Assembly: GCA_937870675.1 (NCBI GenBank)
Contig: CALMZN010000002.1
Span: forward strand, 1-40,357
DNA: 40,357 nucleotides
Direction: 5' to 3'
Source: an uncultured bacterium
GTDB lineage: Bacteria > Patescibacteriota > Patescibacteriia > UBA1558 > GWA2-36-10
Part shown: in pieces, positions 5,162 through 30,250 of the stretch
How the letters are laid out: the number at the start of each line of letters is the position of its first letter
How positions within the stretch are numbered: the stretch's first letter is position 1
Made by a program: the position numbers and the translations under genes
The notes under the pieces: model-generated
Databases searched by the model: none
The model's input: only the letters and a program-made list of their open reading frames with translations
Told to the model about the DNA's origin: nothing

Positions 5162-6106
5162 ATGTTGAACGATTTGGAAAAATCCATTATCAAGACCATT
5201 GCTTATTTTGATGTTTTTAATTTTCCTCTGACTACTTTAGAAATCTGGAAGTGGCTTTATCGCCCTCGAGAAAAATACACCTTGCAGGAGGTGCGTGAGG
5301 TCTTGGAAAGCAGTTTGGAGTTGCAAAATAGGGTGACTTTGCAAGAAGGATTTTTTTCCCTGAAAAAAAGGGACAATATTTACCTGTTGAGAAAACAAAA
5401 TAATAACTGGGCAGAAAGAAAGTTTCAAAAAACCGTACGCTTGGTTAAAATTTTTCGTTATTTACCTTTTGTGCGCATGATCGCGGTCTGTAATAATTTG
5501 TCATACAGCAATTCAAAGGATTCCAGCGATATTGATTTGTTTATTATTACCAAAAAAAATCAGATTTGGCTGGCCAGATGTTATTGCTTACTGATATTAA
5601 AATTTTTTGGTTTGCGTCCCAGCATAGAAAATCATCGCGACAAATTTTGCTTAAGTTTTTTTATTGACGAGGGCTATTTGGATATGCAAGGTGTGATGCT
5701 CGGTCAGCATGATGTGCATTTTGTTTATTGGTTTTCCCAATTTTTGCCAATTTATGATCCCGACAATTTGTTTGCCAAATTGCGGACAGCCAATTCCTGG
5801 TGCCAGGAATATTTGCCCAATGCCTATGCTAATGAATTCATTAACAAAGTAGAGCCGATTTTTTTGTCAGATTTGCTTGGCAAAGTAGTAAGTTTTTTTA
5901 GCCAATTGCCAATCATTGCTGGCTGGCTATACAATCAAGCGCGTGTTTTGCAGATCAAGATTATTGATCACAATATGCGAGCCATGGTCAATATAGACAC
6001 TAGAGTGATTATCAATGAACAAATGCTCAAGTTTCATTCTAATGATCGCCGTGACCAATATTTTCACCAGTGGAAAGAGCGGGTAAAGCAATTATTGACC
6101 CCGTGA
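5162..6106 (+). CDS. Nucleotidyltransferase-domain protein (hypothetical)
   Basis: Motif SNSKDSSDIDLFIITKK resembles a minimal NTase motif (S..D.D). C-terminus (LLTP*) is encoded by the left arm of an inverted repeat. Confidence 0.6.
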   Translation: MLNDLEKSIIKTIAYFDVFNFPLTTLEIWKWLYRPREKYTLQEVREVLESSLELQNRVTLQEGFFSLKKRDNIYLLRKQNNNWAERKFQKTVRLVKIFRYLPFVRMIAVCNNLSYSNSKDSSDIDLFIITKKNQIWLARCYCLLILKFFGLRPSIENHRDKFCLSFFIDEGYLDMQGVMLGQHDVHFVYWFSQFLPIYDPDNLFAKLRTANSWCQEYLPNAYANEFINKVEPIFLSDLLGKVVSFFSQLPIIAGWLYNQARVLQIKIIDHNMRAMVNIDTRVIINEQMLKFHSNDRRDQYFHQWKERVKQLLTP

Positions 6107-6210
6107 AATAAATTTAATTTGCGTTAGCATAAAAAAAAGAACGAGTTAACAATTTAGATAAAAAGTTAATATATTATTTTAATAATTAAATTTATTTCAC
6201 GGGGTCAATA
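6093..6210. repeat. Inverted-repeat element, copy 1
   Basis: Perfect 27-bp arms: tattgaccccgtgaaataaatttaatt (6093-6119) and aattaaatttatttcacggggtcaata (6184-6210). Confidence 0.85.
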
Positions 6211-6213
6211 TTT

Positions 6214-7524
6214 ATGAGCAAAAATTTTATACAAAAAAGTTTTGTTTTTCTATTAAGCTTTTTTGTTTTTGTTATCCCTTGGCAAAGTCGATTTATCTAT
6301 AAAGATATCATGCTGGAGGGTCAAATTTGGCAGTTTGGACGCTTGAGTATCTATGCCAGCATGTTGGTTTTGTTCGCCACGGCTTTGGCTTTTGGCTGGC
6401 ATCGTCGTGAGCAGTGGCACTTGTCCAAAAATAAATGGTGGTATGGTTTATTTTTTTATGGCTTGGCCGTCTGTCTTAGTAAGCCCCTACCGCTTTTAGG
6501 TCTTTATTATTTGTTTATTATTTTTGCCGCGATTTTGTTTATCTGGCTGGCACAATATGTCAATAAAAAAAATATTTTGTGGGCTTTGTTGCTTGGTGGT
6601 TTAGGGCAGAGTATTTTGGCAATTTATCAAGGGCTTACGCAAAATATTAGCGCCAACAAATGGCTAGGTATGGCTGAGCAATTAGCCCAAAATCGCGGTG
6701 TGTCTGTTTTGGAGAGCGGGGATATGCGTATTTTAAGGGCTTATGGCGCTTTGCCTCATCCCAATATTTTAGCTGGTTTTTTGGTTTTGGCAATTTTGGC
6801 TGGCTTATATTTGTGGCACAGCATTTACGTCCAAAGCGAACAAGCAGATTGGCAAATTAAAAAAATAAGAAAATATACGCTTAGTTTATGTCTGGTGATA
6901 GTTAGCTTGGTATTGATGAGCTTTGCACTGCTGGCTACTTTTTCTCGTAGCGCCCTGCTAGCAATGCTTGCCACCTTATTGTTTATTTTTGTTTTCAGTA
7001 TAATAAAAAAAGACCGACTTACTATTTATGTGTTTATCAAATACGCGGTTTTGTTGTTTATTACTTTTTTTGCTTTTAATTTGTATTATCCTAATCTATG
7101 GGCTAGCCGTTTTGATTTAAATAATCGTTTGGAAGCCAAATCAATAGAGGACAGGGGCTTGACCTATGGCCAACTGAGTTGGGGCAATCCCCAAGAAATT
7201 ATTTTTGGTCAGGGCTTGGGCTTGAATACTTATTGGGCCCATAAAAAAACCACGCCCTTGTCTGTTGATCAGATGCAACCTATTCACAATTGGTATTTAC
7301 TGGCTTTGACTGAAGTGGGTCTGGTAGGTGTATTTATGTTTTTGGTGTTATTATATTTTTATCTTAAAAAAAGTTTGTTTATAAAAAATAAAAACCAAAT
7401 TTGGTCTTGGAGTTTTGTTTTGTTAATATTGTTATTGGGATTGTTTGATCACTACTTGTGGACTTCTTGGACTGGCTGGCTGATGGTGGGGATAGTAGTA
7501 GCTATCGTTCATAATAAAGAATAA
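6214..7524 (+). CDS. O-antigen ligase-like (Wzy_C-type) polytopic membrane protein
   Basis: Many TM segments; FSRSALLAML and IFGQGLGLNTYW...PIHNWYLLALTEVGLVGV are typical of the O-antigen ligase family. Confidence 0.75.
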   Translation: MSKNFIQKSFVFLLSFFVFVIPWQSRFIYKDIMLEGQIWQFGRLSIYASMLVLFATALAFGWHRREQWHLSKNKWWYGLFFYGLAVCLSKPLPLLGLYYLFIIFAAILFIWLAQYVNKKNILWALLLGGLGQSILAIYQGLTQNISANKWLGMAEQLAQNRGVSVLESGDMRILRAYGALPHPNILAGFLVLAILAGLYLWHSIYVQSEQADWQIKKIRKYTLSLCLVIVSLVLMSFALLATFSRSALLAMLATLLFIFVFSIIKKDRLTIYVFIKYAVLLFITFFAFNLYYPNLWASRFDLNNRLEAKSIEDRGLTYGQLSWGNPQEIIFGQGLGLNTYWAHKKTTPLSVDQMQPIHNWYLLALTEVGLVGVFMFLVLLYFYLKKSLFIKNKNQIWSWSFVLLILLLGLFDHYLWTSWTGWLMVGIVVAIVHNKE

Positions 7525-16077: not shown

Positions 16078-19000
16078 ATGAATTATCTGCACATTGTTCA
16101 TCAACACAAAAACAGAATAATTTTTTTCATTTTTGTCTTCTTATTTGTTATTTTTGGTAGTTTTTTGTTTGTGGGGGTTGAGAGAGCTAGTGCCGCGACA
16201 TATTATGTTTCCACAACAGGTACCGATGATGCTAGCCATGGCACCGGCACTGGTACTGATGCTTGGCTGACCCTAGATTATGCTTTGACTGGTTCACGGG
16301 TTGCCATGGGAGACACTATTAATATTGAAGCTGGGACTTATAGCTCTTTTTATGGAGCTGACACTTATATTAGCCCCACTATAAACACCGCTAGTGGTAG
16401 CGGACCGGTTATAATACAAGCTTATCCTACCGATGCCGTGGTCACTCTTGATATGCCAGTTAATACTTCCGGCAGTTATGCTTTCCTTTTTCTAAACTCA
16501 ACTAGATGGGGTGAGTTTACTTTTAAACATATTAATTTTACCAATTCCAACGCAGTTGCTTCCCAATTATTTTGGATATACGGTCACAACCTAACTCTTG
16601 AGGATTGCCAAATAACCTTTAACGCCGCCGTGACCAGAACACAAATTTATATAAGCACTGATACTGAAGATGCTAATTTGATATTTAGAAGAACTAAGAT
16701 CATCAATGGTCCATCGGGTAGCAGATACATAATTAGCAACGGTAAGGTCGGCGCAAATGTTACTCTTGAAAGTAGTTTATTTTATGATCAAATTTATTAT
16801 ATCCTAGCCCTAGGAGCTAGAACAAATGTGACTGTGACTAATTCTACTTTTTTCACCAGTTATGCAAAATTTTATATGCCCGCTGAAGCGAGTGGATCAA
16901 TTTTCCATATCAAAAATAATATTTTTTATGCCAATACAGACACCGACTATCGGCCGTTTGTAACGGTTGACGCTATATCAGCTGAAATAATAGCAAATCC
17001 AGACAATTGGGATGTTACAAATAATATTTGGTACTGGTCTAAAGCACCGGTAGCTGAAGTAATACAATATCAGTACTTTATAGGTGGACATACCCACATT
17101 GACCAGGTTGATAGCACCAATCATTATATAAATCCTCAATTTACAGCAACCTCTACTGATGATTATACTATACAAGTTGGATCTGATATCTGTGGTCATG
17201 GATTGCAGGCCAGCTTACCAGCCGACGGTGATGTCACTGGGGTAGCTTGGACTGGTAATGATATTGGCGCTTATAAGTGCCCTAGCTCAAGTACTGGCGT
17301 TACTTTATTAGATAAAGTTGCCTTTGTTGGTGATTCTATAATGCTTCAAGGTACAGTCGCTTCAACTTTTACTGACCAAACTGGCCTAGATGTTGTTGCC
17401 GTCGCTGATACCGCAATATCTGGCGCACCAATGCAAAAAATATTTGATTCTATTGATGCTGTAATGATAAATAGTAGCCCCAGTACTGTATTTTTATCAA
17501 TTGGCATCAATAATTTAGCCTTGCAAACACCAGCCCTAGCCACCAACACCGAATATGCTAATTATATTTTAGAGATTATGGAAAAAATTGAAGATTGGGG
17601 AGCAACACCGATCTGGTTGGGCATAGGGACACTTAATAATTACGGTGGGTTGCCTGACACTCCTATTCCTATAATCAACGCCGCTGTTGAAGCTGGTTGC
17701 GTCTCTCATGGCTGGACATGTGACGCCTATTATGATCAAATGACTTTCAACTCTAGCTGGCAATCCGCCTCACCTAATGGATATTATGACACCAATGGCG
17801 ATGTCCATCCCAATACTGCTGGCTATCAGCTCATCGGAGAATTTGCTGAATATTTATATTATACTCACCACACTATGGGTACTGATGAAATAGATGTCGG
17901 AGCCGGAGCTAGAGTCTACTCTAATGGTAAATTTAGAGATCAAGGCGTTGTTTCTGGGATTACGGCTGATTTGACAGTAACACCAGCGTGGGGTGGCTTT
18001 ACAACTGGAGATTACTCTTATTGGTTGGATGTCGGTATTGATTCGTGGTTGACTAGTGGCACATATAATAAACAATGGACTGCTTCTTCTACTTTAGCCA
18101 CAACTACGATTTATACAATTGGTGATTTAGCCCCATCAAAATATTATAAATTTAAATTAGATGGAGCTGATTATACCAGTATTACTGGTGACACTTGCGC
18201 CAGTGGTATTTGTCTTTCAGATTCTTTGGGTAACCTTACTTTTACTTATGCGGGTGGTTATTCTACCCACACTTTTGCTTTGGAACAAAATACTAGTGCG
18301 CCAACTAATATTGGATTTACATCAATTACTGCTGATTCTACAAGTCAGCTAACAATTTTGGCAGACACAGCTGTTGACTCTGATCCGGGATTATCAGCAA
18401 CTCCATATTGGTTTGATGAAACAACAGGTGGTTCAGGCGCAACAGATTCTTCGGATTGGCAATCTTCAGCCACGTATATAGATAGTGGCTTATCAACTAA
18501 TACTCAGTATACTTATAGAGTCAAGGCCCGAGATGGCAATACCAACGAATCCGACTATTCTACTACCTTATCAAAATATACTCTAGCCCCTACACCCAGC
18601 AATCTATCAGCCACTGCCAGCCGAACTAGCATAAGTCTATCGGTCAGCGCTTTAGATAATGCCAGTTCTGGTTCATCGGGTTATTATTTTTCTCGCAATG
18701 ACGGTACTAACTCCGGCTGGATACAAACTAATACTTGGGATGATACAAGTTTATCTTGTGGCACTTCATATACCTATTCAGTAAAGTATCGAAATGGTGA
18801 TGGGACAGAAACTAGCGTAAATACCATCACTAAATCAACAAGTGGTTGTAGTGGTGGTGGTAGCTACTATATACCCTCCGTTGGTCTGGGGAGTACGGAT
18901 TTTTATTTTAAAATTGGTGAGACCAAAGAAATTACTGGCCTAGGAACCAATGGAATAAATATTTTGGTCTATGTTCATTCATCATTGATATTTAGTTTGG

Positions 19001-19725
19001 TAAATTCAAATACAAAATATAATTTGGAAGTTTTGGATTTAGATACAGCTACTGGTCTAATAAAAATAAAATTAGCGGACAGAATTTTTTATTTATCACC
19101 TGGTAAAAGTCAAAAATTTGACCTTGATGGGGGTGGAAATTTTGATTTGCAATTAGTTTATAATAAATTAAAAGTTAATCAAATTGATTTAACTCTGCTC
19201 ACATTAGATCAGCCAATCCCGACTTCTGACTTATTAGCAAATGGTAGTCTAGTCAAAACACCGAACGATCCGGCGGTTTATCTGGTAGAAAACGGGATGA
19301 AGAGGCACATAATCAATGAGGATGTTTTTATAGCCCAAGGATTTTCTTGGTCTGATATTATAGATGTGCCGAATTTGGACAATTATCCTTCTGGAGAAAT
19401 AATAAATATCACTAGTAATAAAACCAACAACCCATCAGTGATAAATAATTATGTATTTACAGTTAATTTGCCATATGGTAGTGCTAGTGATGATGTGCTA
19501 CGGCTACAAAAATTTTTAAATGCCAATGGATTTATTGTGGCTAATACTGGGTTCGGCTCACCTGGTCATGAAACTAAAATATTCGGCAGAGCTACCAGAG
19601 CGGCCTTAATAAAATTTCAAAATAAATATAAAAAACAAATTCTTGAACCCTTGGGTCTAAGCAATGGCACTGGAATTTTTGGTCCAGCCACTAGAGAATT
19701 TATAAAAAATAATTTTAGTTATTAG
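16078..19725 (+). CDS. Large secreted multidomain surface protein: beta-helix, SGNH-type hydrolase, FN3-like repeats, C-terminal peptidoglycan-binding domain
   Basis: N-terminal TM/signal; pectate-lyase-like repeats; SGNH blocks VAFVGDSI, FLSIGINN, DVHPNTAGYQL; FN3-like segments; C-terminal GSASDDVLRLQKFLNANGF...IFGRATRAALIKFQ. Confidence 0.8.
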   Translation: MNYLHIVHQHKNRIIFFIFVFLFVIFGSFLFVGVERASAATYYVSTTGTDDASHGTGTGTDAWLTLDYALTGSRVAMGDTINIEAGTYSSFYGADTYISPTINTASGSGPVIIQAYPTDAVVTLDMPVNTSGSYAFLFLNSTRWGEFTFKHINFTNSNAVASQLFWIYGHNLTLEDCQITFNAAVTRTQIYISTDTEDANLIFRRTKIINGPSGSRYIISNGKVGANVTLESSLFYDQIYYILALGARTNVTVTNSTFFTSYAKFYMPAEASGSIFHIKNNIFYANTDTDYRPFVTVDAISAEIIANPDNWDVTNNIWYWSKAPVAEVIQYQYFIGGHTHIDQVDSTNHYINPQFTATSTDDYTIQVGSDICGHGLQASLPADGDVTGVAWTGNDIGAYKCPSSSTGVTLLDKVAFVGDSIMLQGTVASTFTDQTGLDVVAVADTAISGAPMQKIFDSIDAVMINSSPSTVFLSIGINNLALQTPALATNTEYANYILEIMEKIEDWGATPIWLGIGTLNNYGGLPDTPIPIINAAVEAGCVSHGWTCDAYYDQMTFNSSWQSASPNGYYDTNGDVHPNTAGYQLIGEFAEYLYYTHHTMGTDEIDVGAGARVYSNGKFRDQGVVSGITADLTVTPAWGGFTTGDYSYWLDVGIDSWLTSGTYNKQWTASSTLATTTIYTIGDLAPSKYYKFKLDGADYTSITGDTCASGICLSDSLGNLTFTYAGGYSTHTFALEQNTSAPTNIGFTSITADSTSQLTILADTAVDSDPGLSATPYWFDETTGGSGATDSSDWQSSATYIDSGLSTNTQYTYRVKARDGNTNESDYSTTLSKYTLAPTPSNLSATASRTSISLSVSALDNASSGSSGYYFSRNDGTNSGWIQTNTWDDTSLSCGTSYTYSVKYRNGDGTETSVNTITKSTSGCSGGGSYYIPSVGLGSTDFYFKIGETKEITGLGTNGINILVYVHSSLIFSLVNSNTKYNLEVLDLDTATGLIKIKLADRIFYLSPGKSQKFDLDGGGNFDLQLVYNKLKVNQIDLTLLTLDQPIPTSDLLANGSLVKTPNDPAVYLVENGMKRHIINEDVFIAQGFSWSDIIDVPNLDNYPSGEIINITSNKTNNPSVINNYVFTVNLPYGSASDDVLRLQKFLNANGFIVANTGFGSPGHETKIFGRATRAALIKFQNKYKKQILEPLGLSNGTGIFGPATREFIKNNFSY

Positions 19726-23682: not shown

Positions 23683-25212
23683 ATGGCGAAATTTTTTAAG
23701 ATACCATACACCAAAAAAATTTTTACCTTTTTCCTAATTTTTGTTTGGGTTTTTTCATCTTGGCCGAAAATTATTGATTTTCCGCCAACAGTAAAAGAGG
23801 CCTCCGCCGCTAGTGGCGATGTCATACTTTTGTGGGACACGGCCAATGGTTCAGTCCCTTCGGGCTGGACTTGTATTTCTTGCACTGGTGGTGATGCTTT
23901 TTACGGTGTTTTCCCCAGAGCCGCTTCCAGCTATGGCGCGTCCACGGCTGGCTCTGATACTCATACGCACACTTTAACTTATTCTAGCGCTACCCAAGGC
24001 GCCAATGGTGATGCCTTGGGTGAACTTACTGGTAATAGAGCGTCTGTCAACACGCATACGCATACTTGGGGCAATATTACTTCTGGTAGTGGCGATGTCA
24101 GGCCAAGTTATAAAAATTTGAATTTTATTTATGCCAACAATCCTTCATCAATTCCCGCCAATGTTATTGCTGTGTTTGATAGCACTTTGCCGTCTGGCTG
24201 GACAAGATACAGCGCTTTGGACAGCATATATTTGCGTGGCAATGCTGATAATGCGACCGGAGGCGGAGCAACGCATTATCATGCTATTGCTAGTGGCTCC
24301 ATAACCTCAAGCGGTCACAGCAATATTTTGACTGACTCTGGCAATGCTCGCAGTGCTTGTAATCAAACGGCTGGCCACCTTCTTCCTTCGGCCACTACAA
24401 ATCTTGATAATAACAACAATGCCCCTCCCTATGTTCAGGTAATTTTTGCCTATAATTCCAGCGGTAGCGCTATTTCTCTTTCTTCAACTTCGGCTACAGG
24501 CATGATTGCTTTTTTCAATGCCACGCCACCTTCGGGCTGGGACACTATTTCAGATGTCTCGCCTTGGAATGGTAATTTTTTGATGGGTTATTCTAGCTAT
24601 GGCTCAACCGGCGGCTCAAGCGCTGATCATAATCATGGTGGGTCCAAGAGTTTTACATCAGCCGCCTGCGCGTCAAGCGCGAATGGTCTTGGTCCAACTG
24701 GCACTTATACTGGCGCATTAGAAACTCATTCTCATAGCGTCACTTACACGATTGATTCTCAAGCATCACTGCCGCTTTATCGCGATGTTATTTTAGCCAA
24801 AAAAGAAGCGCCAACATTTAGCATTAGCATATCCACCAATGGCGCAGTAGCTTTTGGAACACTGGCTCTGGAGCAGACCCAAGACAATACAGTTACCGGA
24901 GTCAATGATATAGAGATTGTGAGCGTTGATGTTGGCCCGGTAGATTTGGATATCAAAAGCACAGTTTTTACAGAGGGAGGTAATACTTGGACACTTGGCT
25001 CCAGTAATGGTTCCAATCAAGTCAAATGGGAGTTTGCCACCTCAACTAATAATTGGGTGACTATGGCCGTGGCCAATTCAAATTATGAGATGGATCTCAA
25101 TGTCGCCCAGTCAGCTACTAGAAATGTATATTTGCGCATTACTATGCCAACAGCGACCAATTCTTACAACCAATATAGCTCAACAGTCACCATTACGGCC
25201 TCATCTCCGTAG
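23683..25212 (+). CDS. Secreted protein with three phage tail collar-like repeats and a C-terminal beta module
   Basis: Signal/TM N-terminus; repeats PSGWTC..., PSGWTR..., PSGWDT..., each with a His-rich motif (DTHTHTL, HYHA, DHNHGG); C-terminal YSSTVTITASSP. Confidence 0.65.
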   Translation: MAKFFKIPYTKKIFTFFLIFVWVFSSWPKIIDFPPTVKEASAASGDVILLWDTANGSVPSGWTCISCTGGDAFYGVFPRAASSYGASTAGSDTHTHTLTYSSATQGANGDALGELTGNRASVNTHTHTWGNITSGSGDVRPSYKNLNFIYANNPSSIPANVIAVFDSTLPSGWTRYSALDSIYLRGNADNATGGGATHYHAIASGSITSSGHSNILTDSGNARSACNQTAGHLLPSATTNLDNNNNAPPYVQVIFAYNSSGSAISLSSTSATGMIAFFNATPPSGWDTISDVSPWNGNFLMGYSSYGSTGGSSADHNHGGSKSFTSAACASSANGLGPTGTYTGALETHSHSVTYTIDSQASLPLYRDVILAKKEAPTFSISISTNGAVAFGTLALEQTQDNTVTGVNDIEIVSVDVGPVDLDIKSTVFTEGGNTWTLGSSNGSNQVKWEFATSTNNWVTMAVANSNYEMDLNVAQSATRNVYLRITMPTATNSYNQYSSTVTITASSP

Positions 25213-25238
25213 GGGGGTTTGGTGTTTTTTTAAATTTT

Positions 25239-25248
25239 GTGCTATAAT
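25239..25248 (+). promoter_or_regulatory. Putative extended -10 promoter
   Basis: aaattttGTGCTATAATat, same 16-nt word as at about 23660. Confidence 0.5.
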
Positions 25249-25337
25249 ATTATCATGTAATTTTAATATATATATAAATATAAAAATAAAAAATATTAAT
25301 ATATATAAAATAATAAATAAAAACTAAATGTAAACGT

Positions 25338-25856
25338 ATGAAAGAAACTATTTTATCAACATTGATTGTCATTGTTTTTGGTTTTTTGGTGGTAGTTGGT
25401 GTCAGAGCCGCTGACAATGCGGATGTCACAGCCACTGTCACAGTCCAAAACATTGCTATGACCTTGAGCCAGTCAACATTTGACTATGGCACTATGTCAA
25501 GCAATACCACCTCTACCACAGTGCCTCTTTGGGCGGGGGCAGGCATAGTAGCCACCAACACTGGCAATGTCAACGAAGATTTTGACATCAACAGCGCTGA
25601 CACTGCTGCTTGGACGCTAGCGACAGCCACATCAACCGCTGATATTTACGCTCATCGTTTTTGCAATGACACGGATAATGACTGCACAACACCTTGGACT
25701 AATTACACAGCCATGACTACATCGCCAGGAGCGTTGGACACGGGAATAGCAGCATCGGGCACAGTTGCTTTTCAATTGCAGATACACACTCCCAACCCTA
25801 GCACAGTTTTTACTGAGCAGAGCTCTAGCGTGACAGTGACGGCTAGCGCCAGCTAA
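25338..25856 (+). CDS. Small secreted beta-rich surface protein (172 aa)
   Basis: Signal peptide (MKETILSTLIVIVFGFLVVVGVRAAD); C-terminal QSSSVTVTASAS matches the C-terminal module of the 23683 ORF. Confidence 0.65.
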   Translation: MKETILSTLIVIVFGFLVVVGVRAADNADVTATVTVQNIAMTLSQSTFDYGTMSSNTTSTTVPLWAGAGIVATNTGNVNEDFDINSADTAAWTLATATSTADIYAHRFCNDTDNDCTTPWTNYTAMTTSPGALDTGIAASGTVAFQLQIHTPNPSTVFTEQSSSVTVTASAS

Positions 25857-25889
25857 GTGAATATTTAAATTTTGTTTTTATAACCGGTT

Positions 25890-26492
25890 ATGAAAAAATC
25901 TACCTTAGCGGTTGTGGCTATTTGTTTATTTTTACCTTTTTGGGCTTTGGCCAAGATTGGCGTGGGGGTGGGGACTGGTAAAATAGTGGTTGATCAGCCG
26001 ATGAAACCCGGTTTGATTTACACTTTACCACCTTTAGTGGTTCTAAATACCGGCGATGAGGCCTCAGATTACGGCGTCACTATTCAACATCGTGAAAATC
26101 AAGAGCAGATGAAACCAGCTAAGGAATGGTTTAGTTTTGAGCCCAGTAGTTTTTATCTGAATCCCGGTGAATCAAAAGTTGTTCAAATCAAATTAACTTT
26201 GCCCATAAAAGGGGCTAGACCGGGAGATTATTTTGCTTTTTTACAGGCCTATCCAAAGCAAAAAGCTGGTGTCTCGGGTACTAGTGTCAATATAGCCGCC
26301 GCCGCTAAATTGTATTTTACGATAGTGCCTAGTAATTTTTTTGCCGGAATTTATTATAGGATTGTTTCACTTTTGACGCTTTATTCTCCTTGGGGGTACA
26401 TAGTTTTGGTAGTCATTGGAGCTACTTTGTTGCTTGGCATACTGCGCCGTTTCATTTCTTTTAATATCGGACTTAGCGTCAAGAAAAAATAA
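25890..26492 (+). CDS. DUF916 (WxLIP)-like secreted/membrane protein
   Basis: Signal peptide; GKIVVDQPMKPGLIYTLPPLVVLNTGDEASDYGVTIQ...FYLNPGESKVVQIKLTLP..GARPGDYFAFL; C-terminal TM segment. Confidence 0.6.
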   Translation: MKKSTLAVVAICLFLPFWALAKIGVGVGTGKIVVDQPMKPGLIYTLPPLVVLNTGDEASDYGVTIQHRENQEQMKPAKEWFSFEPSSFYLNPGESKVVQIKLTLPIKGARPGDYFAFLQAYPKQKAGVSGTSVNIAAAAKLYFTIVPSNFFAGIYYRIVSLLTLYSPWGYIVLVVIGATLLLGILRRFISFNIGLSVKKK

Positions 26493-26506
26493 GATTGTCA
26501 TAATGA

Positions 26507-27562
26507 ATGAAAAAACATGATTTGATGGTTAATTTATTTTTTTTATTAACAATAGTTTTGGCTATTGTTTTTTTTATTTTTTCTAAAGAAATAGTTTTTA
26601 GCAGTGATAGTGTGGTGACGACAGTGCAAATATCGGTTTGTGGTAATGGCGTCAAAGAGGGCGGCGAAGATTGCGATACTAATGATTTTGGGGGAGTATC
26701 TTGCACTTCTTTGGGCTACACCAGCGGTACTTTGACCTGTGATGCGGCTTGCGATTACGTCACTAGCGCTTGTATATACACGGCACCAGTAATTATTGGC
26801 GGTGGTGGCGGTGGTAGCACTGTATTGTTGCCAACAGTGACAGGAGTAAGCTTTTCAGGCAAAGCTTATCCATCAAGTGAAGTCACAGTTTTAAAAGATG
26901 GCCAAATTATTTCTATGACCATGGCTGGTCCGGATGCTAATTTTTTAGTCAGTTTATCCAATATTTCAGCGGGTAATTATATTTTTGCTTTATATACTGA
27001 GGATTCTCAGGGTCTGCGTTCTTCTTTGTTTACTTTTCAGGTCTATGTCACTTTTGGCGCTATTAGCACGGTTAGTGGTATTTTTCTTTCACCGACAATC
27101 ACTGCGGACAAAGTCGAAGTTAAAAAAGGCGATAATTTGGCAATCTTTGGTCAAACAACGCCCAATTCTCAAGTGAGTATCCTAGTCAACTCTTCTCAAG
27201 ATTTTTTTGCTAGCGCCAGTACGGACGAATCAGGCGCTTACCTTTATAATTTTGATACTAGTGTTTTGGAAGAAGGGGACCATAGTACTAAGTCAAAAGT
27301 AACCCTCAATAGCGCTACTAGCAACTATAGCACAGCCGTTGGTTTTTTGGTGGGTGATAAAAACGTCAGCCGACAACCTGGCGCTGATTGTGGTAATCTG
27401 CGAGGGGACATAAATTGCGACGGCAAGGTAAATTTGGTTGATTTTTCCATTGCCGCTTATTGGTATCGGCGGACAAATCCACCAATTCGCGTTGATATTA
27501 ATGGCGATGGGCAGGTGAGTTTGGTAGATTTTAGTATTATGGCTTACAATTGGACTGGTTAA
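26507..27562 (+). CDS. Secreted protein with CGNGxxEGGEDCD Cys-rich module, Ig-like domains and C-terminal type I dockerin
   Basis: VCGNGVKEGGEDCDTND; C-terminal duplicated calcium loops DINCDGKVNLVDFSI and DINGDGQVSLVDFSI. Confidence 0.85.
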   Translation: MKKHDLMVNLFFLLTIVLAIVFFIFSKEIVFSSDSVVTTVQISVCGNGVKEGGEDCDTNDFGGVSCTSLGYTSGTLTCDAACDYVTSACIYTAPVIIGGGGGGSTVLLPTVTGVSFSGKAYPSSEVTVLKDGQIISMTMAGPDANFLVSLSNISAGNYIFALYTEDSQGLRSSLFTFQVYVTFGAISTVSGIFLSPTITADKVEVKKGDNLAIFGQTTPNSQVSILVNSSQDFFASASTDESGAYLYNFDTSVLEEGDHSTKSKVTLNSATSNYSTAVGFLVGDKNVSRQPGADCGNLRGDINCDGKVNLVDFSIAAYWYRRTNPPIRVDINGDGQVSLVDFSIMAYNWTG

Positions 27563-28449
27563 TGTTTATGATAAAAGGAGCAGTAAAAATATTATTGTTG
27601 TTGGGTCTGATCTGGCCCTTGAGCGGACAAGCGGCTTTGTTTTATTTTGAAGATAAGCAAAACAGCGCCGTGGTTGGCCAAGATACGAGCATTACTCTAA
27701 AAATTGATACTCAAGGTCAGCTGATAAACGCTATTGAGGGTGATGTGCTTTTGCCGTCGGATTTACAATTAGTGGATATTTTTGATAATGGCTCTATAAT
27801 AAGTTTTTGGGTGGAAAAACCGGAAAACAAAAATAATATAGTCCACTTTTCTGGTATTACTCCGGGCGGTTTTATGGGGCAGGGAATTTTGTTCAAAATA
27901 TTGGTCAAGGCAGGTTCGTCTGGGTCAAGACAAATAACTTTGGGTAATTTGTCAGCTTATTTGAGTGATGGACAAGGCACGAACGTTATTGTGAGCAGTC
28001 AGTCCGCGCAAATGGATTTTATTATAAGTGAAGAGGCGCCGGCAATTGAAATAAAAATAAATGACAATGAACGGCCCGAAGATTTTACACCTATCATTAG
28101 TCGTTTGGATCAGATTGAGCCGGGTATTTATTTTTTGATTTTTGCTACTCAAGATAAGGGGTCAGGAATTGACTATTATGAAGTGCGAGAAGGATGGTAT
28201 AATTACCAACTAGCCCTTAGCCCTTATCGTCTGAAGAATCAAGAATTGAATCAAGATATTTTTGTCAAAGCCGTGGATAAGGCCGGCAATGAACGAGTCG
28301 TTAAGGTCTTGGCTCTATACGATAAGGCGTGGTATGAAAATTTTTGGTTTTATGTTATAATGATAAGCGTAGTTATTTCGTTGTTTTTGGGTAAAAAAAT
28401 AAAATTATTACGGCATCATGGCCGATCGACAAACAAAAATAAAAGTTAA
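27562..28449 (+). CDS. Cohesin-domain membrane-anchored protein
   Basis: Signal peptide, cohesin-like domain (VVGQDTSITLKIDTQGQLINAIEGDVLLPSDLQLVDI...LSDGQGTNVIV), C-terminal TM; start overlaps the previous stop (TAATG). Confidence 0.78.
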   Translation: MFMIKGAVKILLLLGLIWPLSGQAALFYFEDKQNSAVVGQDTSITLKIDTQGQLINAIEGDVLLPSDLQLVDIFDNGSIISFWVEKPENKNNIVHFSGITPGGFMGQGILFKILVKAGSSGSRQITLGNLSAYLSDGQGTNVIVSSQSAQMDFIISEEAPAIEIKINDNERPEDFTPIISRLDQIEPGIYFLIFATQDKGSGIDYYEVREGWYNYQLALSPYRLKNQELNQDIFVKAVDKAGNERVVKVLALYDKAWYENFWFYVIMISVVISLFLGKKIKLLRHHGRSTNKNKS

Positions 28450-30184
28450 AAATAAAATCAATAAAAAAACGTGGTTAGGCGCCGTAGTTTTGGCGTTATT
28501 TTTTATTTTTGGTCATCAGGTTAAGGCGCAAGCGGCCAGCCTTTATTTTAGTCCGTCAGCTGGATCTTATACAGTAGGGAAAACTTTTAGCACGGCTGTT
28601 TATGTTTCGTCAGCCAGTCAAGCAATCAATGCTGTCTCGGGTGTAATCCGTTTTCCCAGCGATCTGTTGGAGGTGACTAGTGTTTCCAAGTCCGGATCAG
28701 TATTGACTTTTTGGGTGCAAGAGCCATCGTATTCCAATAGTAATGGCGAGATAAATTTTGAAGGCATAGTGATGAACCCGGGTTTTACCGGAACTGGTGG
28801 CAAGATTATAACCATCACTTTCAAAACCAAGACCGCTGGTGTCGCCAATTTGAGTTTGGGCAGTGGTTCGGTTTTGGCCAATGACGGTCAGGGGACCAAT
28901 ATTATTAATTCTTTGGGTACAGCCAGATTTAATATTGAAGCTAAGCAAGTGGGACCAGCCGCTCCTGAAGGGGAAACGCCGTCAGAATCAGTCGGCACGC
29001 CACCTGCCCCCAAGATTGAATCCAGCACTCATCCTGATCCCAATGCTTGGTACGCCAACAATAACCCAGAATTTTCTTGGGTCTTGGCCAAAGATATTAC
29101 TTCGGCCAGCTTATTGGTCAGCAATAAACCCCAAGATGTCCCCAGCATCAACTATACACCAGCGATTAGTAGCAAAAGTTTGGCCGGCATTGATGACGGC
29201 GCTTGGTATTTACACATACGTTTGCGCAACAAATTGGGCTGGGGCGGAACGACGCACTATCGTTTTCAAATTGATCGAACCAATCCGGAATATTTAAATA
29301 TCAAAATGTTGGATCGGGCAAATTTGACCGAGGCGAGCTTAAAATTTATTTTTGATGCCTTTGATGCTGCTTCTGGCATTGAAAAATATGAAATCCAAAT
29401 GGATAACAATGATACCATCAAATGGATTGATGATGGCAGTCATGTCTATACCACCGAATCACTAGTTCCAGGCCGGCACACAATGATAGTCAAGGCCATT
29501 GATCGCGCTGGTAATTTTGTGGCTAATTTTGTGGAATTCAACATTGAAGCCATTAATGCGCCGGTGATTACTTATTATCCCACCAGTTTGACGAGCAAGG
29601 ATATATTTTTGGTCAAAGGCGAGACTTACACCAATGCCAAAGTTTTTATTTCTATTCGTCGCGATCACGATGAGCCACAAAAATTTGAAACCCAAGCTGA
29701 TGAAAACGGCAAGTTCACTTTTGTGGCGGATGATAAATTATCGGACGGCATTTATCACTTCTGGGCAGAGGCAATGGATAGTAAGGGGGCCCGCAGTCTC
29801 CCCACGCAACAATACCGCTTTATGGTCGAGCAGCCAAAATTTATCCGCATCGGTTCCCTTGCTATCAGTTTCTTGTCAGTAATAATTTCTTTGATCGCCC
29901 TACTCTTGGGCTTAGTAATGTTTTGGGGTTATTCAATGAGAAAAGCTAAGACCATCAGTCGTCGCGTGAAAAAAGAGACCGTAGAAGCTAGCACGGTTTT
30001 GCATCAAGAATTTCATAAGTTAAAGGACAATGTCAAGAAGCAGTTGACTTCCATAGAGTGCGCTGGCAAAAAACGCGCTCTAACCAAAGAGGAGGCGAAG
30101 CTATTAAAGAAATTAAGCGCAGATTTGACGGTGGCCGAAGATAAAGTGGCCAAAGAAATTTCTGATATCAAAAAACAAGTATAG
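28418..30184 (+). CDS. Cohesin-domain membrane-anchored protein with Ig/FN3-like repeats and cytoplasmic coiled-coil tail
   Basis: LYFSPSAGSYTVGKTFSTAVYVSSASQAINAVSGVIRFPSDLLEVTSV...; TM near LAISFLSVIISLIALLLGLVMFW; charged C-terminus; overlaps the upstream ORF by 32 nt. Confidence 0.8.
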   Translation: MADRQTKIKVKNKINKKTWLGAVVLALFFIFGHQVKAQAASLYFSPSAGSYTVGKTFSTAVYVSSASQAINAVSGVIRFPSDLLEVTSVSKSGSVLTFWVQEPSYSNSNGEINFEGIVMNPGFTGTGGKIITITFKTKTAGVANLSLGSGSVLANDGQGTNIINSLGTARFNIEAKQVGPAAPEGETPSESVGTPPAPKIESSTHPDPNAWYANNNPEFSWVLAKDITSASLLVSNKPQDVPSINYTPAISSKSLAGIDDGAWYLHIRLRNKLGWGGTTHYRFQIDRTNPEYLNIKMLDRANLTEASLKFIFDAFDAASGIEKYEIQMDNNDTIKWIDDGSHVYTTESLVPGRHTMIVKAIDRAGNFVANFVEFNIEAINAPVITYYPTSLTSKDIFLVKGETYTNAKVFISIRRDHDEPQKFETQADENGKFTFVADDKLSDGIYHFWAEAMDSKGARSLPTQQYRFMVEQPKFIRIGSLAISFLSVIISLIALLLGLVMFWGYSMRKAKTISRRVKKETVEASTVLHQEFHKLKDNVKKQLTSIECAGKKRALTKEEAKLLKKLSADLTVAEDKVAKEISDIKKQV

Positions 30185-30210: not shown

Positions 30211-30250
30211 CAGCCCTGCACCGCCTGGTACAGGGCTGGCTTGTTTTTTT
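30211..30250. terminator. Rho-independent terminator between convergent genes
   Basis: cagccctg-caccgcctggta-cagggctg followed by gcttgttttttt. Confidence 0.75.

Follow-up and report, generated by a model that had tools for sequence, protein, structure and literature searches.

A probable cohesin–dockerin surface-docking unit encoded by three overlapping genes in Patescibacteria

Our analysis concerns three overlapping genes on a 40,357-nt stretch of DNA from an uncultured patescibacterium (contig CALMZN010000002.1, assembly GCA_937870675.1; the whole stretch is called the window below). The first encodes a protein with immunoglobulin-like (Ig-like) domains that ends in a dockerin, and the next two, cohA and cohB, encode cohesin proteins with a transmembrane (TM) helix. 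Most of what is known of cohesin–dockerin pairs comes from cellulose-degrading organisms. The trio is quite probably a dedicated, non-cellulosomal cohesin–dockerin unit for docking at the cell surface, in which two cohesins hold the Ig-like protein at the membrane. In the mechanism that we propose, the Ig-like protein, whose hydrophobic N-terminus is observed, would be exported by Sec and, after cleavage, would escape from the cell; a co-translated pair of type I membrane proteins, of observed anatomy and modelled fold, would display its cohesins outward, and the dockerin would bind these through two calcium-loaded F-hand motifs and retain the Ig-like protein, as its profile, co-inheritance and predicted placement suggest. 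The short-tail cohesin protein may be a plain anchor, and the coil of the long-tail one may connect the docked protein with the cell interior. We infer the Ca2+ dependence, the retention and the functions of cargo and coil. On our best reading, the unit works like a cell-anchoring scaffoldin and not like a cellulosome.

The dockerin repeats (DINCDGKVNLVDFSI / DINGDGQVSLVDFSI) lie at the extreme C-terminus of the 351-aa protein and exceed the curated cut-off of Pfam Dockerin_1 (PF00404; 22.9 bits) both in a genome search (27.9 bits) and in a scan of the protein (26.0 bits, 1e-5); Big_6 was found in the same protein at 6.3e-9 in a Pfam scan. Each half has a 12-residue F-hand calcium loop with ligands at positions 1, 3, 5, 9 and 12 (D-x-N-x-D...N/S..D in both) followed by a helix, as expected of type I, and in the model of a sister locus the dockerin helices span residues 17-25 and 46-56. 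A duplicated type I dockerin had been called here from the letters alone, and with the Pfam cut-off passed and both loops intact that call stands. When 29 units were aligned, the loop aspartates and the DFSI positions proved invariant or nearly so in both halves, and in most units the dockerin ends at the stop codon or a few residues before it. A dockerin profile run against the PDB recovered solved dockerins, the best at 2.1e-9. Type I dockerins have a dual binding mode, and the near symmetry of the two halves suggests such a mode here.

CohA and CohB each comprise an N-terminal hydrophobic segment, a cohesin and a TM helix. The sequence-only reading had given both proteins a signal peptide, a cohesin and a C-terminal TM segment; all three elements are present, but the CohB helix (residues 483-501) is not terminal, being followed by an 87-residue cytoplasmic coil. 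Hydropathy and signal sites were scanned with simple scripts, not SignalP or DeepTMHMM, and the hydropathy cut-off missed the CohB signal peptide, where the CohB model has a helix. Of 114 proteins, 97 have a TM helix C-terminal to the cohesin, and several of the exceptions are truncated open reading frames. Two kinds of receptor are prominent: short-tail ones end about 10 residues past the TM helix, and long-tail ones continue for about 85 residues as a charged helix. It is conceivable, if doubtful, that the dockerin protein bridges a short-tail and a long-tail receptor through its symmetric halves, linking or signalling a surface event inward through the coil, which would be an integrin-like role for the pair in ultra-small bacteria.

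The association of dockerin and cohesin recurs across the phylum, which we sampled with 389 genomes. Those listed measure 0.5-1.7 Mb throughout, a range that, with bacterial genes recognised in the window, points to Patescibacteria. The dockerin subtype was found in 91 of them, the cohesin in 136 and both in 75 (Fisher p = 7e-27). For 46 of the 61 strongest dockerin matches, a cohesin domain on that strand begins no more than 600 nt further downstream, at a median distance of 124 nt; by a rough estimate, the number of such adjacencies expected by chance is well under one. The fetched loci contain 46 dockerin-to-cohesin units from 43 genomes, with two cohesin genes in 33 units, three in 6, four in 2 and one in 5, a recurrence of gene order that suggests more than chance. 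Around the trio loci, other gene families are conserved in at most 8 loci, as against 41 each for dockerin and cohesin. The genome-wide dockerin count that had been proposed as a check came, in profile searches of the window's genome, to a single match, beside two cohesin matches. Moreover, dockerin divergence follows cohesin divergence (Mantel r 0.60 for cohA and 0.57 for cohB, permutation p = 0.0005), a correlation that partly reflects shared species history, and in genome G001, which has two units, dockerin and first cohesin share their nearest relative within each unit (the window in one unit, G005 in the second). A trio at locus L003 adjoins a gene on the opposite strand (5690-7303) for a divergent cohesin protein, the third there. 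In six loci outside the window's family, among them L099 (10048-10464), the dockerin gene has a neighbour that encodes a small membrane-anchored protein.

Patescibacteria are frequently epibionts, and the dockerin could instead bind in trans, to cohesins of neighbouring or partner cells or to cohesin-like proteins of a host, serving cell–cell adhesion or epibiont attachment. One study names a dockerin protein, SEML1_0315, among those essential to Southlakia epibionticum, and its authors speculate about host-glycan targeting (PMC10633639). Binding in trans nevertheless seems unlikely to us, since ligand and receptors are encoded together by overlapping genes and co-diverge within one genome, which favours binding within the same cell.

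At the level of the family, sequence profiles and a predicted fold settle, in our view, the assignment of the cohA- and cohB-type domains as cohesins. An iterated domain profile built from collected relatives gave 75 domain matches, of which 74 were aligned; 39 of the 74 individually match Pfam Cohesin at E <= 0.01 (best 2.7e-11), and the top matches of the 74-domain profile in the PDB are all cohesins (best 3.9e-5). A PDB search with the CohB sequence alone had returned coiled-coil noise and weak matches only. The CohA model of a sister locus has the jelly-roll beta-sandwich of a cohesin. Its top Foldseek match is 2xdh, the non-cellulosomal cohesin of Archaeoglobus fulgidus (E 6.6e-11, TMt 0.80), and the top 50 are cohesin structures nearly throughout, including 3ul4 and 4dh2. 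The cohesin domains noticed by eye are thus upheld by both family profile and fold search. The Pfam check proposed along with them came out in part: Dockerin_1 lies above its cut-off, but neither CohA nor CohB singly reaches that of Cohesin (PF00963) in scans of the window's genome and of the proteins.

These low single scores would suit a reading in which CohA and CohB are ordinary Ig-like adhesins with a cohesin-like beta-sandwich, and the dockerin merely stabilises the end of its own protein with no docking at all. In the same direction, the adhesin domain 9ifr is among the Foldseek matches of the sister-locus CohA model, and the whole-chain CohB model of the window matches mostly generic multi-Ig chains, with the cohesin-FN3 structure 2w1n at rank 41. 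We consider this reading distinctly improbable, as true cohesins dominate both the profile and the fold matches and the co-occurrence, gene order and co-divergence are specific to the dockerin.

A predicted contact between the two domains comes from sister locus L094, where the dockerin and the first cohesin share a reading frame interrupted by a TAA. Translation through this TAA yields a naturally linked pair, which was folded with AlphaFold (87 alignment rows) to a predicted local distance difference test score (pLDDT) of 92.1 and a predicted template modelling score (pTM) of 0.85. From the pTM formula and the domain lengths we estimate that independent placement of the domains would give about 0.6, suggesting that the position of the dockerin on the cohesin is predicted with an error of roughly 3-4 Å. 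Together with adjacency, the ratio of one dockerin to two cohesins and co-divergence, this predicted placement at L094 supports CohA and CohB as the likely receptors of the dockerin protein, the role already proposed for them in the sequence-only reading.

Several observations weigh against such a docking unit. The window's dockerin protein lacks a clear signal-peptidase site, and could therefore stay anchored in the membrane unaided; most sister dockerin proteins have an AxA-like cleavage site. No cohesin match was found in 16 of the 91 genomes with a dockerin, and no dockerin of the trio type in 61 of the 136 with a cohesin. The modelled complex is a single cognate pair from L094 and not the window's own, its domains are joined by the natural linker, and their placement was judged from pLDDT and pTM; moreover, AlphaFold training includes cohesin–dockerin complexes. 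To these come the Pfam Cohesin scores of the window's proteins and the share of species history in the Mantel correlation.

The cargo was surveyed by Pfam scans of 21 dockerin proteins: that of the window and 20 encoded at other loci, including one protein with cohesins as well. No carbohydrate-active family was found in the 21, many of which carry unassigned regions, and the domains found were of Ig/FN3 type or none, with one Sortilin/BNR protein. In the trio itself the Pfam cargo domains are Ig-like only, in line with the remark, made from the letters, that no catalytic domain was visible. The probable role of the cargo is in adhesion or in the structure of the envelope, and not in breaking down polysaccharides. 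The scans found no carbohydrate-active enzymes (CAZymes) with dockerins, the window's genome having its one dockerin match, and neither a tandem-cohesin scaffoldin nor a carbohydrate-binding module (CBM), each window protein having one cohesin. On these results for the proteins scanned, we rejected a cellulosome.

Some relatives have larger sets. Six dockerin proteins, with no cohesin among them and with N-terminal regions that match no Pfam family, are encoded in a row at L192 (218-11884, G163:C7), and a separate contig (L193) has two paired cohesin genes with a dockerin gene of their own. Cohesin and dockerin are joined in a single, scaffoldin-like protein at L197 (11052-12731), L198 (1093-2985) and L200 (4887-5654). 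The six proteins of L192 and the fusions of L197 and L198 could speak for an enzyme complex, such as a reduced cellulosome, with catalytic dockerin partners encoded elsewhere, but the single dockerin match in the window's genome and the scans for carbohydrate-active families make this highly improbable. Long proteins with about nine tandem dockerin-like repeats, which lack the DFSI signature, are encoded at L123 (5939-9385) and L124 (4857-8114).

Non-cellulosomal cohesins and dockerins were reportedly described by Peer et al. in 2009. The Archaeoglobus cohesin 2xdh, the closest fold match to the sister-locus CohA model, shares with the trio a non-cellulosomal context, whereas the trio is a recurrent unit of a dockerin and two receptors across the phylum. 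Clostridial cell-anchoring scaffoldins (OlpA/OlpC-type; 3ul4, 4dh2) likewise have a single cohesin on an anchored surface protein and a duplicated, calcium-binding type I dockerin on a secreted one. Unlike them, the trio uses a TM helix for anchoring in place of SLH, which had no match in the scanned proteins; a single Ig-like protein is the ligand where they have numerous enzymes; overlapping genes encode the ligand together with its receptors; and both halves of the dockerin bear a DFSIxxYxW signature. Single-cohesin proteins with C-terminal TM helices are known in Firmicutes from a genomic survey, which in its accessible portion places them in a context of CAZyme-type dockerins, leaves the partners of some unclear or unidentified and does not mention a cytoplasmic coil (PMC11557425). 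SEML1_0315 resembles the trio's ligand as a dockerin protein of a patescibacterium thought to act extracellularly; the trio has adjacent cohesins, whereas the part of the paper at hand does not mention cohesin (PMC10633639).

The components of the trio are thus of known kinds, and the stand-alone arrangement of a ligand and two TM receptors across the phylum is apparently undescribed: a partial literature search found no description of a dockerin with two TM receptors in the candidate phyla radiation (CPR), Parcubacteria, Patescibacteria or Saccharibacteria. It suggests a widespread, non-cellulose mode of retaining proteins at the surface of the cell. If so, the cohesin–dockerin pair would serve as a general surface attachment in a mostly uncultured phylum of small genomes, and docking on the cell's own cohesins would be an alternative to the glycan targeting considered for the essential SEML1_0315 (PMC10633639). 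For studies of binding and structure, the overlapping genes also supply ready-made cognate partners.

Table 1. Features of the docking locus and its surroundings (window coordinates)
Feature	Position	Strand	Description
Dockerin protein gene	26507..27562	+	351 aa; N-terminal hydrophobic segment, Cys-rich stretch, glycine run, two Big_6, C-terminal dockerin
Dockerin domain	27386..27559	+	two Ca-binding loops, nearly identical, with DFSIxAYxW after each; reaches the stop codon (WTG*)
cohA, short-tail cohesin receptor (putative)	27562..28449	+	signal peptide, cohesin, Ig-like region, TM helix, cytoplasmic tail of ~12 residues
Cohesin domain of cohA	27628..28017	+	family profile 1.8e-38
cohB, long-tail cohesin receptor (putative)	28418..30184	+	588 aa; signal peptide, cohesin, Ig-like (Big_13), TM helix, 87-residue cytoplasmic helical tail
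Cohesin domain of cohB	28529..28936	+	family profile 2.5e-55
Cytoplasmic helical tail of cohB	29921..30181	+	length and charge pattern conserved among long-tail receptors
Hairpin and T-run, probably the row's intrinsic terminator	30211..30250	+	-20.2 kcal/mol, z -3.0
Membrane-anchored Ig-like protein, PapD/NEW3-like	25890..26492	+	14 nt upstream of the dockerin gene; conserved only near the window's family
Small secreted protein, no assigned family	25338..25856	+	member of the row; conserved only near the window's family

Re-reading of the DNA reproduced exactly the gene coordinates and overlaps given earlier: the ATG of cohA overlaps the TAA of the dockerin gene (TAATG), with an alternative TTG start at 27550, and cohB overlaps cohA by 32 nt. 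The compact trio of the sequence-only reading is borne out in that the dockerin and cohesin genes alone are conserved well beyond the window's family, but within that family the trio closes a longer gene row (23683-30184). A pattern scan missed the hairpin that follows the row, which was detected by a folding-energy test; beyond it the genes are convergent. A WxL/DUF916-type identity for the genes upstream of the trio was dropped in the absence of Pfam support. The row opens at 23683-25212 with a secreted protein rich in HTHTH motifs, which gave an impression, and only that, of repeated phage tail-collar domains and has no Pfam match. Elsewhere in the window are genes that we take, from their sequences, to encode GroEL, UvrA, RpoD and a D-Ala-D-Ala ligase, and a 1215-aa secreted protein (16078-19725) in which a Pfam scan found GDSL lipase, FN3-like and peptidoglycan-binding domains.
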